The notes beneath the pieces were generated by a model, which worked only from the letters and a program-made list of their open reading frames with translations, was not told the DNA's origin and searched no databases. This document shows positions 33,009 through 39,502 of a DNA stretch of 45,444 nucleotides, one piece after another (position 1 is the first letter of the stretch; each line of letters begins with the position of its first letter). The DNA lies in NCBI RefSeq assembly GCF_900111995.1, contig NZ_FOKF01000037.1:1-45444 (forward strand), given 5' to 3'. Origin of the DNA: Collimonas sp. OK607. GTDB taxonomy: Bacteria; Pseudomonadota; Gammaproteobacteria; Burkholderiales; Burkholderiaceae_D. The translations under genes were made by a program, and so were the position numbers.

Positions 33009-33402
33009 TGCAATGAATATCGGCGACGCCGCACAGGCTTCAGGCGTTTCGGCCAAAATGATACGGCACTATGAAGAAACCGGCCTGATCCCGAAAGCCA
33101 GCCGCAGCGACGGCGGCTACCGTACTTATGCCGAACGCGATATCCATCTGCTGCGTTTTATCCGCCAGGGCCGCTTGCTGGGATTTTCGATGAAACAGAT
33201 TGCCGAGCTGATCGGCCTCTGGCTGGATCAGTCGCGCCCCAGCAGCAAAGTGAAGCAACTGGCGCTGGACCATATCACTGAATTAGACGAAAAGATCAAG
33301 GAGTTGCAAGCCATGAAAGCCACGCTGGAACAATTGGCCTGCCATTGTCACGGCGATGCGCGGCCCGATTGCCCGATTCTTGAAGGCCTGGCCAGGCAGT
33401 AG
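32998..33402 (+). CDS. cueR: Copper-responsive MerR-family activator CueR
   Basis: 134 aa from the ATG at 32998 (AAGGGA upstream). It overlaps the end of copA by 11 nt; a later ATG at 33013 is possible. The winged HTH starts [26 protein letters not shown] and a long dimerisation helix follows. The metal loop CHGDARPDC has two cysteines with seven residues between them, as in CueR, plus an extra CHCH upstream. It twists the 19-bp-spacer promoters of copZ and copA when Cu(I) binds. Encoded at the 3' end of copA, it is autoregulated through the copA promoter. Confidence 0.93.
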
Positions 33403-33423
33403 CCAAACAGCTGCATTAAGTAA

Positions 33424-33452
33424 CATGAATCAATGCTAGAATCCCATTCATG
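33424..33452 (+). promoter_or_regulatory. Inverted repeat and -10 abutting the DUF2946-like start
   Basis: CATGAAT (33424-33430) and ATTCATG (33446-33452) are perfect inverted arms, the second containing the start codon. TAGAAT (33437-33442) sits between them, seven bases before the ATG, so transcription from it would begin at or next to the start codon (leaderless). No clear -35 is seen. Confidence 0.4.
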
Positions 33453-33842
33453 TTTGCCATGAACCAACTCAGAAACCTGCTGATTTTATTGCTGGCGCTG
33501 ACGCTCCCGATACAGGGATATGCAGCGGCGGCGATGGTTTTTTGCGCCTCGGAAAAGGCCACCGCCGTCAGCGATGATGCCGCAATGGCGCATCATATGC
33601 ATGCGCAAAATGCAGACGTGCCGTCCAAGGCTCAACACGGCAATCTTGAACACTCATCGCACGACAAAAATTCAAGCTCCTGCAGCTCCTGCGCGGCTTG
33701 CTGCGTAGGTGTGATTCCCATGCAGTCGGCATTATCGGCAGCGCAACCGTTCCCCCCCATGCATTTCACGCAGTTTCCACTTTCAGGTTTTGTCGGCTAC
33801 ACCCCGGAAAACCCCGAACGACCGCCCTCAGTCCTCGCGTAA
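33450..33842 (+). CDS. DUF2946-like Cys/His-rich small exported protein (CruR-like)
   Basis: 130 aa; the ATG at 33459 is an alternative start. A signal peptide covers about residues 1-27. A His-rich stretch (HHMHAQ near 48, HSSHDK near 68) leads to CSSCAACC (C78, C81, C84, C85). The C-terminus ends in a PERPP motif that recalls DUF2946 proteins. In Bordetella a DUF2946 upstream ORF (CruR) senses copper through its cysteines and controls translation and transcription of the next genes. Here the gene directly precedes the tolC-oxidase run with paired hairpins between, so the same role is plausible. A simple copper-binding periplasmic protein is the alternative. Confidence 0.6.
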   Translation: MFAMNQLRNLLILLLALTLPIQGYAAAAMVFCASEKATAVSDDAAMAHHMHAQNADVPSKAQHGNLEHSSHDKNSSSCSSCAACCVGVIPMQSALSAAQPFPPMHFTQFPLSGFVGYTPENPERPPSVLA

Positions 33843-33852
33843 CACTCCCAAC

Positions 33853-33950
33853 TCAAACGTCTTGCCGCCCGACCGGGATCGGCAAGTTTGATTGATGGGC
33901 CATGCTCTGGCTACGTCTGCCGCGTGTCTTTGACCGTGGCCTCACGGCAG
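33853..33950 (+). promoter_or_regulatory. Attenuator-like hairpins between the DUF2946-like gene and tolC
   Basis: Stem A: CTTGCCG (33861-33867) pairs with CGGCAAG (33880-33886), extended by TCAAA (33853-33857) with TTTGA (33887-33891) across a 3-nt bulge. Downstream, CACGGCAG (33943-33950) can pair with CTGCCG plus CGTG (33917 onward, one bulge), or its first five bases can pair with CCGTG (33934-33938). These two pairings exclude each other. No U-tract is present, so Rho or translational control is more likely than intrinsic termination. Confidence 0.5.
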
Positions 33951-33987
33951 CCAGGCATTGCTCCATTGTTCGGCTAACGAGGACATC

Positions 33988-35400
33988 ATGTTCATTTTTT
34001 TACGCAGGCGCATGCTGCCTGCCGCGTTGCTGGTCGCCCTGACCGGTTGCGCCAGCTTGAGCGCCGATCACGGTTTTGGCGAAGTCAGCGAGGTTACCAA
34101 ACAACGGCTGGGACAAGCCCCGGCTCAGCCGCGCTCCGAACAGGAACACAGCGAAGCGCGGGATACCGTTCAGAAACTGCTGCAACAGCCGCTCACAGCC
34201 GATGCTGCGGTACAAATCGCCTTGCTCAACAACCGCAACCTGCAAGCCGATTATCAGGAACTCGGGATTGCCGAAGCAAATTTGGTGCAAGCCAGCCGTT
34301 TGCCGAATCCCGGCTTCAGCTTCGGCCGCACCCGCAGCGGCGACAATCTCAAGATAGACCGCAGCTTTTCGATGGCGCTCATGGGCCTGCTGGTGCTGCC
34401 GACGAGTTCGAAAATCGAACAACGCCAGTTCGAGGTCAGCAAATTGACGACTGTCAATCGTATCCTGCAGGTAGCCGCCGAGACCCGCAGCGCTTATTAC
34501 CAAAGTGTTGCGGCTAACCAGAGCATTACCTATCAGGAGCAAGTCGAAAGCGCCGCAGCAGCTGGCAGCGAACTGGCCGGCAAGATGGCTAAGGCTGGTA
34601 ATTTCAATCAATTGGAACTGGCGCGCGAACAAGCGTTTCATGCCGACGCTGTGACGCAATTGACGCGCTCGCGCCAGCAGGCAGTGGTCGCACGTGAACA
34701 GTTGATCCGGCTGCTGGGCCTCGGTTCTGCGCAAATTACATTGCAACTGCCGCCGCGTTTGCCGGAACTGCCAGCCCAGCGTCCCTCTTTGCAAGATGCT
34801 GAGAATCTCGCCATGGCGCAGCGGCTGGACATCGCTGCCGCCAAACTGGAAGTCGAAGGCTTGCAGGCAACGCTGGGATTGAATCAGGCTACCCGCTTCA
34901 TCAATGTGCTGGACCTGGCGTACCTGCATAACTCCGAACCAGGCATCCCACATGAAACCGGCTATCAAATCAGTCTTGAAATCCCCTTGTTCGACTGGGG
35001 TGGCGCACGCATTGCCAAATCGGAAGCGATCTATATGCAAGCTGCGCATCGTCTCGCGGCCACCGCCGTGGATGCCCAGTCGCAGGTACGCGTTGCCTAT
35101 CAGGGCTACCAGAGTGCCTACGATCTGGCGCGGCACTACAACGATCAGGTGGTGCCCTTGCGCAAGCGGGTGTCGGATGAATATCTGCTGCGCTACAACG
35201 GCATGCTGTCCAGCGTATTCGAACTATTGGCCGATGCCCGTGAACAAGCCAATGCGGTCAATGCCGCCATCGACGCCAACCGCAATTTCTGGCTGGCAGA
35301 CAGCGAGATGCAACTGGCGCTCGGCGGTTCTCTGCCAATCTCTACACCTGCACCGTCATCTTCGCCTGCGCCCGCAAAACCACAAGGAAAACAACCATGA
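33988..35400 (+). CDS. TolC-family outer-membrane lipoprotein of the copper island
   Basis: 470 aa from the ATG at 33988 (CGAGGAC upstream); a longer frame at 33958 lacks a ribosome-binding site. The N-terminus MFIFLRRRMLPAALLVALTGC is a lipoprotein signal with C21 as the likely lipidated residue. Two TolC-type repeats follow, with AVQIALLNNRNLQADYQELG near residue 70 and PLFDWGGARIAKSEA near 330, and long coiled-coil regions. The tail is Ala/Pro-rich. No RND pump or membrane-fusion gene accompanies it. It overlaps the multicopper oxidase by four bases (ATGA), so the two are translated together. Confidence 0.85.
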   Translation: MFIFLRRRMLPAALLVALTGCASLSADHGFGEVSEVTKQRLGQAPAQPRSEQEHSEARDTVQKLLQQPLTADAAVQIALLNNRNLQADYQELGIAEANLVQASRLPNPGFSFGRTRSGDNLKIDRSFSMALMGLLVLPTSSKIEQRQFEVSKLTTVNRILQVAAETRSAYYQSVAANQSITYQEQVESAAAAGSELAGKMAKAGNFNQLELAREQAFHADAVTQLTRSRQQAVVAREQLIRLLGLGSAQITLQLPPRLPELPAQRPSLQDAENLAMAQRLDIAAAKLEVEGLQATLGLNQATRFINVLDLAYLHNSEPGIPHETGYQISLEIPLFDWGGARIAKSEAIYMQAAHRLAATAVDAQSQVRVAYQGYQSAYDLARHYNDQVVPLRKRVSDEYLLRYNGMLSSVFELLADAREQANAVNAAIDANRNFWLADSEMQLALGGSLPISTPAPSSSPAPAKPQGKQP

Positions 35401-36725
35401 AGCACTTATCACGACGCGCCTTTTTGCAAGGCTCGGCGCTGGCGGTCAGCGCTACCGCCGTCAGCCGGATCGGCGCCGCCAGCCTGCCGGAAGCCGTATT
35501 GCAAACCCAAGCCAGCACCCAGCCTCCGCTTAGTCCCGCCAACGGCCGCCCTTATCAACCGGTTGTCACCTTGAACGGCTGGACGCTGCCGTGGCGCATG
35601 AATAATGGCGTCAAGGAATTCCATCTGGTGGCAGAGCCGGTAGTGCGCGAAATCGCGCCCGGCATGAAAGCCAATCTGTGGGGTTACAACGGCCAGAGCC
35701 CGGGGCCGACGATCGAGGTAGTGGAAGGCGACCGGGTGCGGATTTTCGTGACCAACAAATTGCCGGAACATACCTCCGTGCACTGGCACGGCCAGCGTTT
35801 GCCGAATGGCATGGATGGCGTCACCGGCCTGACCCAGCCGGGTATCTCGCCCGGCAAGACTTTCGTCTATGAATTCGTGGCGCGCCGTGCCGGCACGTTC
35901 ATGTACCACCCGCATGCCGATGAAATGGTGCAGATGGCGATGGGCATGATGGGCTTCTGGATTACCCATCCGAAAGACCCGTCGCTGATGCGGGTCGACC
36001 GCGATTTCGTGTTCTTGCTGAACGCCTATGACATCGAACCTGGCGCCGCTACACCCAGGGTCAATCAAATGACCGACTTCAACCTGTGGACCTGGAACAG
36101 CCGCGCCTTTCCCGGCATCGATCCGCTGGTGGTGCGACAGCATGACCGGGTCCGGATCCGGGTCGGCAACCTGACCATGACCAACCACCCTATCCACCTG
36201 CACGGCCACGAATTCGTGGTGACCGGCACCGATGGCGGCTGGACTCCACCGGCCAGCCGCTGGCCGGAAGTCAGCACCGATATCGCCGTCGGCCAGATGC
36301 GCGCGATTGAATTCGACGCCAGCGAGCCAGGCGACTGGGCGTTGCATTGCCATAAATCGCATCACACCATGAATGCCATGGGCCACGAGGTGCCGACCAT
36401 GATCGGCGTCGACCAGAAATCGGTATTGAAAAAAATCAACCGGCTGATTCCCGACTACATGGTGATGGGTGACAAAGGCGGCTCGATGGGCGATATGGAA
36501 ATGCCACTGCCAGACAACACCCTGCCGATGATGAGCGGCGCCGGCCCGTTCGGGGGGATTGAAATGGGCGGCATGTTTACTACGATGAAGGTACGCAAAG
36601 GCCTCGCCAGCAACGATTACAAAGATCCCGGCTGGTACAAGCATCCGGCCGGCACTGTCGCCTATGAGTGGAAAGGCGGTGATGCCGCGATGCCAGCCGC
36701 CACCCGGGCGCCTGATCGAATTTAA
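35397..36725 (+). CDS. Periplasmic multicopper oxidase (CopA/CueO-type)
   Basis: 442 aa with a Tat signal (SRRAFLQG at residues 5-12), so it is exported folded. Copper sites are HWHG (129-132), HPH (171-173), HPIHLHGHEF (264-273) and HCHKSHHTMNAMGH (317-330), which supply the T1 Cys-His-Met and the trinuclear centre. It probably oxidises Cu(I) to the less toxic Cu(II). About 110 residues follow the last site, rich in Met and Gly (near 355-398), an unusual C-terminal extension that may bind Cu(I). It is translationally coupled to the TolC-family gene. Confidence 0.9.
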   Translation: MKHLSRRAFLQGSALAVSATAVSRIGAASLPEAVLQTQASTQPPLSPANGRPYQPVVTLNGWTLPWRMNNGVKEFHLVAEPVVREIAPGMKANLWGYNGQSPGPTIEVVEGDRVRIFVTNKLPEHTSVHWHGQRLPNGMDGVTGLTQPGISPGKTFVYEFVARRAGTFMYHPHADEMVQMAMGMMGFWITHPKDPSLMRVDRDFVFLLNAYDIEPGAATPRVNQMTDFNLWTWNSRAFPGIDPLVVRQHDRVRIRVGNLTMTNHPIHLHGHEFVVTGTDGGWTPPASRWPEVSTDIAVGQMRAIEFDASEPGDWALHCHKSHHTMNAMGHEVPTMIGVDQKSVLKKINRLIPDYMVMGDKGGSMGDMEMPLPDNTLPMMSGAGPFGGIEMGGMFTTMKVRKGLASNDYKDPGWYKHPAGTVAYEWKGGDAAMPAATRAPDRI

Positions 36726-36788: not shown

Positions 36789-37274
36789 ATGAAATCCATA
36801 TTAATTGCATCAGTTCTGGCTTTATCGCTGTTATCCCTCAATGCCTTCGCCCACGACGAACCAGAACACAGTGTCGCCACCGAAAAACAGGACGGACATG
36901 CGGCTGCATTAGGTAAACCCGGGGTTGCCGGAAACGTAACGAAAACCATGAACGTCGACATGAACGACACGATGCGTTTCACGCCTGCGACCATCTCGGT
37001 CAAGCGTGGTGAAACCGTCAAATTCATCGTCAAGAATTCCGGCAAGCTAAAGCACGAAATGGTTCTTGGTTCTGTCGATGAATTGAAGGAGCACGCGGCC
37101 ATGATGGCGAAATTCCCGGAAATGGAACATTCCGATCCAAATCAGGTATCGGTTGAACCCGGTAAAACCGGCGAGCTGATCTGGCAATTTGGCAAAGCCG
37201 GCACATTTGAATTCGCCTGCCTGGAGCCGGGACATTTTGAAGCTGGCATGCGCGGAAACATCATCGTTAAATAA
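36789..37274 (+). CDS. Cupredoxin domain protein
   Basis: 161 aa from the ATG at 36789, preceded by AAAAGGA (36773-36779); a longer frame to 36726 is not favoured. The signal peptide is residues 1-21 (cleavage after AFA). A His-rich linker precedes a cupredoxin fold with type-1 copper ligands H89 (KLKHEM), C144 and H149 (ACLEPGHF) and M154. It is a periplasmic copper carrier or electron donor. Position right after the multicopper oxidase (63 nt) suggests it passes copper or electrons to it. Confidence 0.9.
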   Translation: MKSILIASVLALSLLSLNAFAHDEPEHSVATEKQDGHAAALGKPGVAGNVTKTMNVDMNDTMRFTPATISVKRGETVKFIVKNSGKLKHEMVLGSVDELKEHAAMMAKFPEMEHSDPNQVSVEPGKTGELIWQFGKAGTFEFACLEPGHFEAGMRGNIIVK

Positions 37275-37309: not shown

Positions 37310-37642
37310 ATGAAAACAAGTTCCGTTCTATTTGCGGCACTCGCCTTGACGTTAACCGCTTCGTTTAACTTGCCGCTTTCGGCGGTAGCTGCCGAGGAAA
37401 TCAAGCCCGCTGACACAGCGGCCATGTCGGCCGGAGAAGTGAGAAAAATCGATAAAGAGGCAGGCAAGATTACGATCAAGCATGGTCCATTGGTGAACCT
37501 GGATATGCCGCCGATGACGATGGTGTTTCGTGTTAAAGACCCGGCGATGCTGGATCAGGTAAAGCCCGGCGACAAGATAAATTTTGTCGTGGAAAAGACT
37601 AACGGCACCTTGACCGTCACTCAGATGCAGGCTGGCGATTGA
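37310..37642 (+). CDS. cusF: CusF-like periplasmic copper-binding protein, copy 1
   Basis: 110 aa. The signal peptide is residues 1-28 (cleavage after AVA). The CusF OB-like fold contains H58, M69 and M71 at the spacing of E. coli CusF H36, M47 and M49 (H+11, H+13). The position of the CusF tryptophan (H+8) is M66. So the capping aromatic of the Cu(I) site is replaced by methionine. It should shuttle Cu(I) or Ag(I) in the periplasm. It is the last gene of the TolC-oxidase-cupredoxin-CusF run; an AAGGAA ribosome-binding site lies upstream. Confidence 0.88.
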   Translation: MKTSSVLFAALALTLTASFNLPLSAVAAEEIKPADTAAMSAGEVRKIDKEAGKITIKHGPLVNLDMPPMTMVFRVKDPAMLDQVKPGDKINFVVEKTNGTLTVTQMQAGD

Positions 37643-37752: not shown

Positions 37753-38844
37753 ATGAACGCCACATACAAGATCGCCATACTTGCCGGCGACGGCATCGGC
37801 AAGGAGGTCATGCCAGAAGGCCTGCGCGTGATCAAAGCCGCCGCAAAACGCTTTGGCATCACGCTCGAAATGACGGAATTCGACTGGGCCAGTTGCGATT
37901 ACTACGCACAAACCGGCAGCATGATGCCGGAGGACTGGAAGGCGCAACTGGCCGGGATGGATGCTATTTATTTCGGCGCGGTCGGCTGGCCCGTCATCGT
38001 CCCCGATCACATATCCTTATGGGGATCGTTGCTGAAATTCCGTCGCGAATTCGACCAATACATCAACCTGCGCCCGGCACAGACTTTCGAAGGCGTGCGC
38101 AGTCCGCTGGCGGGACGTGGCGCGGGCGACATCGACATGATGATCGTGCGTGAAAACACGGAAGGAGAATACTCATCGGTCGGCGGCATCATGTACGAAG
38201 GCACGCCGCACGAGATCGTCATGCAGCAGGCCGTGTTTTCGCGCCGCGGCACCGAGCGCGTACTCAAGTATGCATTCGACCTTGCCAGGACCCGCGCCCG
38301 CAAACACGTCACCGTGGCCACCAAAAGCAACGGCATTTCGATTTCCATGCCCTGGTGGGATGCCAGGGCAGCGGAAGTCGCCGGCACCTACCCGGATATC
38401 ACCTGGGACAAGCAGCACATCGATATCCTGTGCGCCCGTTTCGTACTGCAGCCGCAACGCTTCGACGTGGTGGTCGCCTCCAATCTGTTCGGCGACATCC
38501 TGTCCGACCTGGGACCGGCATGTACCGGCACTATCGGCCTGGCGCCATCGGCCAACCTGAATCCGGAGCGCAATTTCCCGTCGCTGTTTGAGCCGGTACA
38601 TGGTTCCGCACCCGACATCTACGGCAAGAATATCGCCAATCCGGTGGCGATGATCTGGTCCGGCGCCATGATGCTAGATTTCCTTACCAACAGCAGCGGT
38701 GCGGGCCGGGAAGCACATGACGCCATCGTCGCCGCGATCAAGTCAGTGCTGGCAAGTGGGCCGCATACACCCGACCTGGGTGGAAATGCCTCTACCACCG
38801 AGATGGGGCAAGCTATCGCTCGCCTGATCGGCGATACTGCATGA
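37753..38844 (+). CDS. Tartrate dehydrogenase/decarboxylase (TtuC/DmlA-like)
   Basis: 363 aa, isocitrate/isopropylmalate dehydrogenase fold. NAD-binding and substrate motifs: AILAGDGIGKEV (7-18), a VGWPVIVPDHISLWG block near residue 77, DIDMMIVRENTEGEYSSVGG near 117, and the family signature NLFGDILSDLGPACTGTIGL near 246. The enzyme oxidises D-malate or tartrate with NAD and a divalent metal. A TATAAT at 37681-37686 may be its -10. It has no visible link with copper and sits between two cusF-like genes. Confidence 0.88.
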   Translation: MNATYKIAILAGDGIGKEVMPEGLRVIKAAAKRFGITLEMTEFDWASCDYYAQTGSMMPEDWKAQLAGMDAIYFGAVGWPVIVPDHISLWGSLLKFRREFDQYINLRPAQTFEGVRSPLAGRGAGDIDMMIVRENTEGEYSSVGGIMYEGTPHEIVMQQAVFSRRGTERVLKYAFDLARTRARKHVTVATKSNGISISMPWWDARAAEVAGTYPDITWDKQHIDILCARFVLQPQRFDVVVASNLFGDILSDLGPACTGTIGLAPSANLNPERNFPSLFEPVHGSAPDIYGKNIANPVAMIWSGAMMLDFLTNSSGAGREAHDAIVAAIKSVLASGPHTPDLGGNASTTEMGQAIARLIGDTA

Positions 38845-39154: not shown

Positions 39155-39502
39155 ATGCAATACCTGCAGATAATCGTCATCCTCACCACATTAATCATTG
39201 GCCTGCCCCTGAGCAGCATGGCAGCCAACAGCGACAACACCGAGATGCAAACCACGCCGGCAGACCAGACCGCGCTGCCGATGGTGGCCGGAGAAATACG
39301 CAAGGTAGATAGCGGCACCGGCAAGATCACCATCAAGCATGCAGAAATCCCCAACTTCGGCATGCCGGCCATGACCATGCTGTACAAAGCTGGCGATCCG
39401 GTCATGCTGGAACAGTTCAAGGCTGGCGACAAGATCGAGTTTGCCGTCGATAAGGTTGACGGTGCGTTGACTATAGTCAGCCTGGAATTGGCTAATCGAT
39501 AA
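39155..39502 (+). CDS. cusF: CusF-like periplasmic copper-binding protein, copy 2
   Basis: 115 aa. The signal peptide is residues 1-24 (cleavage near MAA-N). H62, M73 and M75 sit at CusF spacing (H+11, H+13) and the tryptophan position (H+8) is M70, the same change as in copy 1. IRKVDSGTGKITIKH and GDKIEFAVDKVDG align with copy 1, so the two are paralogues. It is cut off from the rest of the copper run by the tartrate-dehydrogenase gene and is probably expressed separately. Confidence 0.88.
   Translation: MQYLQIIVILTTLIIGLPLSSMAANSDNTEMQTTPADQTALPMVAGEIRKVDSGTGKITIKHAEIPNFGMPAMTMLYKAGDPVMLEQFKAGDKIEFAVDKVDGALTIVSLELANR

Follow-up and report, generated by a model that had tools for sequence, protein, structure and literature searches.

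Several copper operons are described as being controlled by a leader protein encoded upstream. In the portions of the published reports on which we draw here, CutF lets copper induce the multicopper oxidase CutO by opening its Shine-Dalgarno (SD) sequence (PMC9973294), and copL of Xanthomonas is needed in cis for copper-regulated expression of copA (as related in PMC9973294). CruR has the opposite sign, copper repressing a TonB-dependent transporter through Rho (PMC9426467); its CxxC and RAPP motifs stand 45 residues apart, within one or two (PMC9426467), its arrest was mapped with both proline codons of RAPP in the P and A sites (PMC12992588), and the gap behind it was held to be incompatible with translational coupling (PMC9426467). 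Here we analyze a stretch of 45,444 nucleotides (nt) from Collimonas sp. OK607 (contig NZ_FOKF01000037.1), hereafter the window, in which an upstream open reading frame (uORF) of 130 amino acids (aa), at 33450..33842 on the forward strand like all features below, precedes a tolC-family gene and further copper genes. On balance, and with moderate confidence, we read this uORF as a cis-acting copper leader of the CutF/CopL type, whose tail would lock the SD of tolC until a copper-prolonged ribosome arrest opens it.

The conserved RNA element of this locus is, from its recurrence in related sequences, a predicted long-range helix between the last uORF codons and the tolC SD, which the preliminary description overlooked. 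The sequence GTCCTCG, within the final V-L-A codons (33831..33837), is a perfect 7-base-pair complement of the SD region CGAGGAC (33978..33984), which it is predicted to sequester (SD unpaired probability 0.05). The helix appears in both the minimum free energy and the centroid structure of 33822-33996 (z -4.26, a stability matched by 0 of 200 shuffles) and closes the whole gap of 145 nt that separates the uORF from the tolC ATG at 33988, a gap already given at this length in the preliminary description.

We collected 99 loci, mainly family-search matches reaching the C-terminus of the uORF, with two duplicates removed; 89 could be scored, the other 10 having no qualifying start within 330 nt. 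Across these 89 loci of the taxonomic family, the duplex between each tail and its own SD averages -10.2 kcal/mol, versus -7.9 for mismatched partners, and none of 5000 permutations is as good. The same holds when relatives are collapsed at 70% identity (59 clusters, 0/5000). With one locus per genus, over 20 genera, the mean z is -4.0 and p stays below 0.05 in all 200 resamplings; adding 16 loci of other families brings the genus-level z to -5.4. Genus labels were transcribed manually from the search results, with inferred assignments for three Herbaspirillum loci and one Duganella locus. The 16 outside loci, out of 30 available, score -9.6 versus -7.7 on their own (7/5000), with a mean z of -3.4 when grouped by genome (15 groups, where one genome with two loci counts once; it counts as two groups in the -5.4 test). 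Searches across the phylum supplied a second set, entirely from beyond the family and with members of the CopL family among it (21 usable of 29 loci), which gives -10.2 versus -8.0 (0/5000) and a mean z of -3.3 over 15 genus groups. The predicted RNA lock thus appears to reach beyond the family. When the uORF window is displaced 9 to 105 nt upstream, the pairing drops to between -8.25 and -6.4, and 49 ordinary neighbouring gene pairs from 25 of the same loci average -4.5, compared with -10.9 for the uORF pairs. In many relatives (L021, L023, L028, L030, L052, L072 and similar) the leader and tolC are separated by a further ORF of 80 codons or more, and in these the duplex was scored against the SD of that ORF.

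The helix also emerges from comparative folding. Given no prior helix, RNAalifold places it in the consensus of three hand-picked alignments: A2, comprising Collimonas (9 sequences), and A3 and A4, a second and a third Burkholderiaceae group (13 and 10 sequences). A3 and A4 were chosen after single-sequence folds and duplexes had been inspected, so that pairing was favoured there. In A3, 91.6% of the helix cells are paired, versus 28-46% when the helix is slid by 1-3 columns, and four pairs carry changes on both sides; this covariation score was reached by 0 of 500 shuffles, in a test that favours the structure because the structure was derived from the same sequences. The register of the helix to both the stop and the start codon lies between -14 and -11 in 63 of the 89 loci, across gaps of 55 to 265 nt. 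Finally, a residue after the RPP motif of the leader changes by lineage in step with the SD flank: Thr, Ser and Leu codons ACC, TCC and CTC go with flanks GGTAA, GGAAA and GAGAG (L052, L072 and L102, respectively), a correspondence that tail-SD pairing may explain.

Judged from its relatives, the ORF at 33450-33842 is real and conserved, and the Cys-rich protein with its CSSCAACC and PERPP motifs stands as the preliminary description had drawn it. It has a signal-peptide-like N-terminal segment and is probably exported. The putative copper site CSSCAACC (C78-C85, codons 33681..33704) contributes C78, C81, C84 and C85, and the putative arrest motif is ERPP, with R124-P125-P126 encoded at 33819..33827. 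P20, C32, C78, R124, P125 and P126 are invariant among 34 aligned relatives. Over the 99 loci, RPP occurs near the C-terminus in 94, RP[PD] in 98, and CxxC in 84, the last sought only 26-59 residues before the Arg. In these 84 loci the first Cys lies 46.7 +/- 1.0 residues from the Arg of RPP (44-49 from Cys cluster to RPP in relatives, 46 in the window), while the signal-peptide core, located with a crude hydrophobic window, precedes the Cys motif by 78 +/- 13.6 residues. Only the Cys-RPP distance is therefore fixed, at about the 45 residues of CruR and CutF, as ribosome or translocon geometry would demand.

Leader relatives were matched in 125 of the 195 genomes of the family. The nearest named ones belong to Collimonas sp. 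OK307 (L003, 90% identical to the window uORF), C. antrihumi, Collimonas sp. OK242 and C. humicola; the search for plasmid relatives gave no match. Two further observations concern the relatives: a second, weak relative lies in the same genome (G000:C52:2985-3149, L157), and G045:C11:84549-84947 carries two in-frame stops within the match and may be a decaying copy.

To which class does this leader belong? The preliminary description regarded it as DUF2946-like, after CruR. The DUF2946 profile (PF11162) gives the uORF only 16.0 bits (E 0.021), under the Pfam gathering cut-off of 23.7 bits, and we reject membership. The same profile finds one gene in the window's own genome, on another contig (G000:C46:51347-51685, L001), and has matches in 157 of the 195 family genomes; in the window's genome, the DUF2946 and leader searches retrieve different genes. 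The best curated matches, weak and nearly full-length, are CzcI (NF045614, 39.8 bits) and CopL (NF033807, 26.9 bits), both under their curated cut-offs of 100 and 40 bits. Where CruR ends in RAPP, the uORF has ERPP, with R124 directly before P125-P126, and its 42 residues from C81 to R124 are similar to the CruR spacing and outside its range. The published rules for CutF-like proteins are fewer than 150 aa, Pro-Pro within the 15 C-terminal residues, a signal peptide and a same-strand gene within 1000 nt (PMC9973294); the uORF presents 130 aa, Pro-Pro at 125-126, a signal peptide as judged from the sequence and a gap of 145 nt, and the downstream SD is masked by a predicted RNA structure. These sequence comparisons place the leader closer to the CzcI/CopL/CutF-like leaders and further from CruR.

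The transcript of the uORF is predicted to be leaderless. An extended -10 element, TGCTAGAAT (33434..33442), can be read from the sequence 7 nt before the uORF ATG at 33450, with neither a -35 element nor a CueR box visible. Starts could be placed for 87 of the 99 loci: 65 of them have a -10-like hexamer 6-8 nt before the uORF ATG (mononucleotide shuffles: mean 2.4, maximum 8), the window falling outside these 65 since its second ATG was scored, and none of the 87 has an SD-like motif before the uORF. As a group, then, the leader peptides look leaderless. A scan for the classical -35/-10 consensus returned no promoter. A 9-bp inverted repeat around the -10 element (33422-33430/33446-33454) was considered as an operator and rejected, as it is not kept in relatives. 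A CueR-type box does occur at the uORF promoter in eight loci of one genus (L055, L056, L063, L065, L067, L082, L086, L092), which have a changed Cys motif (CSNHGAC or similar) and lack the tail-SD helix (-6.0 versus -10.6 in the other 81 loci). This suggestive pattern, seen in one lineage, would fit a replacement of the RNA lock by control of transcription. By eye, several CruR-type loci look likewise leaderless.

We propose the following mechanism. When a ribosome finishes the uORF, the tail would pair with the tolC SD over the 145-nt gap, with the first stem-loop of the gap (SL1) and other hairpins looping out, and tolC would be closed. When copper is present, the nascent chain emerging through SecYEG would bind it at the Cys cluster, and the copper-bound chain would make the ribosome pause with Pro-Pro in the P and A sites. 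By analogy with CruR the P site would lie at 33822-33824. The anti-SD would then occupy +9 to +15 and fall within the ribosome footprint, which extends to about +15 from the P-site codon, or at its border; with 33831-33837 covered by the paused ribosome, the lock could not form, and translation of tolC and the following genes would proceed. The operon would then be copper-induced post-transcriptionally, from an apparently leaderless promoter with no visible CueR box. That copper prolongs the arrest and opens tolC, following CutF and opposite to CruR, is the most likely sign, because of the analogy with CutF and CopL and the detoxification gene set. Folding calculations are consistent with such a release across the group: with an arrested ribosome (-15 to +17) in the model, opening the SD costs on average 4.17 kcal/mol in place of 5.16 (85 loci, kinship uncorrected), a control block 50 nt upstream leaves the cost unchanged (5.17), and after removal of the upstream sequence the arrested ribosome brings it from 5.17 down to 3.72.

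A number of results weigh against this mechanism or against the helix behind it. With single-linkage clustering at 50% identity, 67 of 5000 permutations do as well (19 clusters), and at 45% the test is not significant (7 clusters, 738/5000). Register-restricted permutations are marginal (317 and 271 of 5000); register was the basis for choosing the rows, and most of their pairs do not vary. Displaced SD windows score -3.3 to -8.6, the position 24 nt upstream of the SD reaching -8.6 versus -10.2 at the SD itself. The matched duplex is not better than the locus's own mismatched mean in 17 of the 89 family loci (L006, a Collimonas, and L011, L013, L014, L016, L036, L050, L051, L053, L056, L064, L065, L068, L080, L097, L098 and L104), in 6 of the 16 outside loci and in 5 of the 21 of the second set. 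Conservation of the tail helix in Collimonas comes without any both-sided change, and in longer sequence context the helix has a probability of 0.32 to 0.99 across nine loci of the genus; in the window the value is only about one third, owing to competition from a local hairpin over the ATG. Crude ORF calling in the window's own genome gave 56 gene pairs with a mean of -6.5, of which three score -13.3 or below, the window pair among them, so that 2 of the 55 others do as well or better; the single locus is unremarkable, and it is therefore the recurrence that constitutes the evidence. Opening costs at the window locus are not lowered by modelled arrest (5.3 to 5.6), nor when the upstream sequence is cut away (4.6 to 5.0 on modelled arrest), the nine Collimonas loci show no significant fall relative to the free state (p 0.25), and the same footprint test on unpaired probabilities is weak (0.16 to 0.20, 85 loci). 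Thermodynamically, then, the group as a whole makes a fair case and its member in the window a poor one. Lastly, the most robust arrest was seen with RAPP and RGPP in the part of the arrest study that we cite (PMC12992588), where the uORF has ERPP; its arrest strength cannot be transferred from CruR, because the Arg is one place nearer to Pro-Pro than in RAPP.

Could the locus be explained otherwise? The modelled terminating ribosome, which opens the SD as well as the arrested one (4.10 versus 4.17), counts against a special role of arrest and is what plain translational coupling would predict: any ribosome reaching the uORF end would melt the helix, the peptide would be disposable or chaperone-like, and copper sensing would be left entirely to CueR or some other regulator of transcription. 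The same-strand copA and cueR directly upstream, which could be cotranscribed, fit this view. It leaves unexplained, however, both the near-invariant RPP with its fixed distance to the Cys cluster and the loss of the helix in the one genus with a CueR box (8 loci, -6.0 versus -10.6), and we consider it unlikely. Slightly less probable still, in our judgement, is a switch of the CruR kind, in which the ribosome would arrest on ERPP without copper, copper would relieve the arrest, and Rho would stop transcription before tolC, making copper a repressor. The build is similar, with a CxxC, a C-terminal Arg/Pro-Pro motif and a gap of 145 nt against 162 nt in Bordetella pertussis CruR (PMC9426467), and the tail-SD complementarity found in CruR-type loci means that loss of arrest could close the SD and admit Rho. 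Repression by copper is nevertheless hard to reconcile with copper detoxification genes lying beside copA and cueR, and CopL and CutF, which precede copper oxidases, act positively as far as they are described in the cited source (PMC9973294). It is highly improbable, finally, that the protein is a periplasmic copper chaperone acting in trans, its RNA complementarity being incidental. A signal-peptide-like N-terminus, a Cys/His-rich sequence and a place within a copper operon would suit a chaperone, and CutF was itself first proposed as one in the portion of the earlier report considered here (PMC8456105); but cutF and copL are described as failing to complement in trans (PMC9973294), and the complementarity beats mismatched, shifted and same-locus controls. 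Of the preliminary description, we thus retain the core, a Cys-rich nascent peptide with an arrest-like C-terminus acting in cis, which agrees with the comparative data, and set aside DUF2946, the CruR model and the alternative stems described next.

The 145-nt gap folds better than all 200 of its shuffles (z -3.56). The strong stem placed at 33853-33891 by the preliminary description is recovered by comparative folding as SL1 (33854..33890), kept in the nine Collimonas sequences of the window uORF type. Its two helices have 83% and 95% of their cells paired, and two pairs show both-sided changes, a number also attained by 40 of 500 shuffles when the tested structure is taken as a whole. The two mutually exclusive stems of the preliminary description (33917..33950; 33917-33926 or 33934-33938 with 33943-33950) can be drawn here and are not conserved: one or both arms fall inside deletions in Collimonas sp. 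OK307 (L003), L008 and L043. They are lineage-specific, and we reject them as the switch.

The genes around the leader run, on the forward strand, copA, cueR, the uORF, tolC, a multicopper oxidase, a cupredoxin and cusF, and profile matches agree with the identities that had been assigned to the genes after the uORF. The presumed target, a TolC-family outer membrane protein (33988..35400), matches PF02321 OEP (E 5.8e-24). We placed its start at ATG 33988, in place of TTG 33958 from the mechanical ORF list, because GAGG at 33979-33982 would serve as SD for 33988. It is followed by the multicopper oxidase (35397..36725; PF07732 and PF07731, under the TIGR01480 cut-off), a CopI-like cupredoxin (36789..37274; PF00127, and NF051440 with E 4.2e-37, yet under the cut-off of that model) and a CusF-like periplasmic copper protein (37310..37642; PF11604, E 2.9e-30). 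Within 33300-34100 we found no Rfam family up to an E-value of 1 and no intrinsic terminator. Two CusF-like genes, at 37310-37642 and 39155-39502, stand on either side of an ORF at 37753-38844, which we take to resemble an isocitrate/tartrate dehydrogenase. The idea that the leader controls a gene set different from those reported is weak: in the cited part of the CutF study, CutF-like genes are most often followed by outer membrane efflux proteins, and CutO is a multicopper oxidase (PMC9973294).

The nearest published precedent is therefore CutF-cutO of Rhodobacter capsulatus and not CruR, which the preliminary description had taken as its model. As described in the same source, CutF is an exported leader with a Cys motif and a C-terminal Pro motif that acts in cis on a multicopper oxidase, an RNA structure hides the downstream SD, and copper switches expression on (PMC9973294). 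CutF differs in its CxxxC, its PEPEGPPPRL end and a stem-loop in an intergenic region of 40 bp (PMC9973294), whereas the window has ERPP, a 145-nt gap, tolC as first target and the anti-SD in the last codons of the uORF itself; the cutO stem-loop may overlap the end of cutF. CzcI of Cupriavidus is described as having no C-terminal Pro motif (PMC9973294). CruR-bfrG of B. pertussis shares with our locus a CxxC leader, a C-terminal Arg/Pro-Pro motif, a long gap and a copper operon, and differs, as reported, in the DUF2946 family, in RAPP, in a dispensable signal peptide and in copper repression through Rho (PMC9426467). Monitoring arrest peptides such as SecM (SecM-secA) likewise break up an SD-masking structure when the ribosome arrests close to the end of the uORF; what they sense, according to the part of the account cited, is protein translocation and not a metal (PMC10987492).

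The words Shine-Dalgarno and hairpin are absent from the main text of the CruR paper (PMC9426467). In 22 usable of 30 CruR-type loci, found with the DUF2946 profile, the tail-SD duplex averages -10.1 versus -7.0 (0/5000); these come from only 6 genera, and one locus per genus gives a mean z of -3.4, with 4 exceptions among the 22. Such loci (L159-L188), which precede TonB-dependent receptors and other genes, show up to 11 contiguous tail-SD pairs (L178). The passages on CruR, CutF and arrest peptides covered here mention neither an anti-SD in the last codons of a leader nor a leaderless leader. We therefore offer, tentatively and as a conjecture that we hold somewhat more doubtful than our reading of the window itself, that CutF-, CopL- and CruR-type leaders share one device: the post-arrest codons and stop region of an often leaderless uORF would form the anti-SD of the next gene, and an arrested ribosome would keep this lock open, over gaps of about 55-390 nt. 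If so, the only difference between operons that copper induces and operons that it represses would be the effect of the metal on the arrest, prolonged in one case and relieved in the other, and closure of the SD would lead to the Rho termination of CruR operons. The pairing predicts that mutations of a few bases would act and could be compensated. A conserved pairing of this kind would bridge long gaps and link the separate reports on CutF, CopL and CruR.

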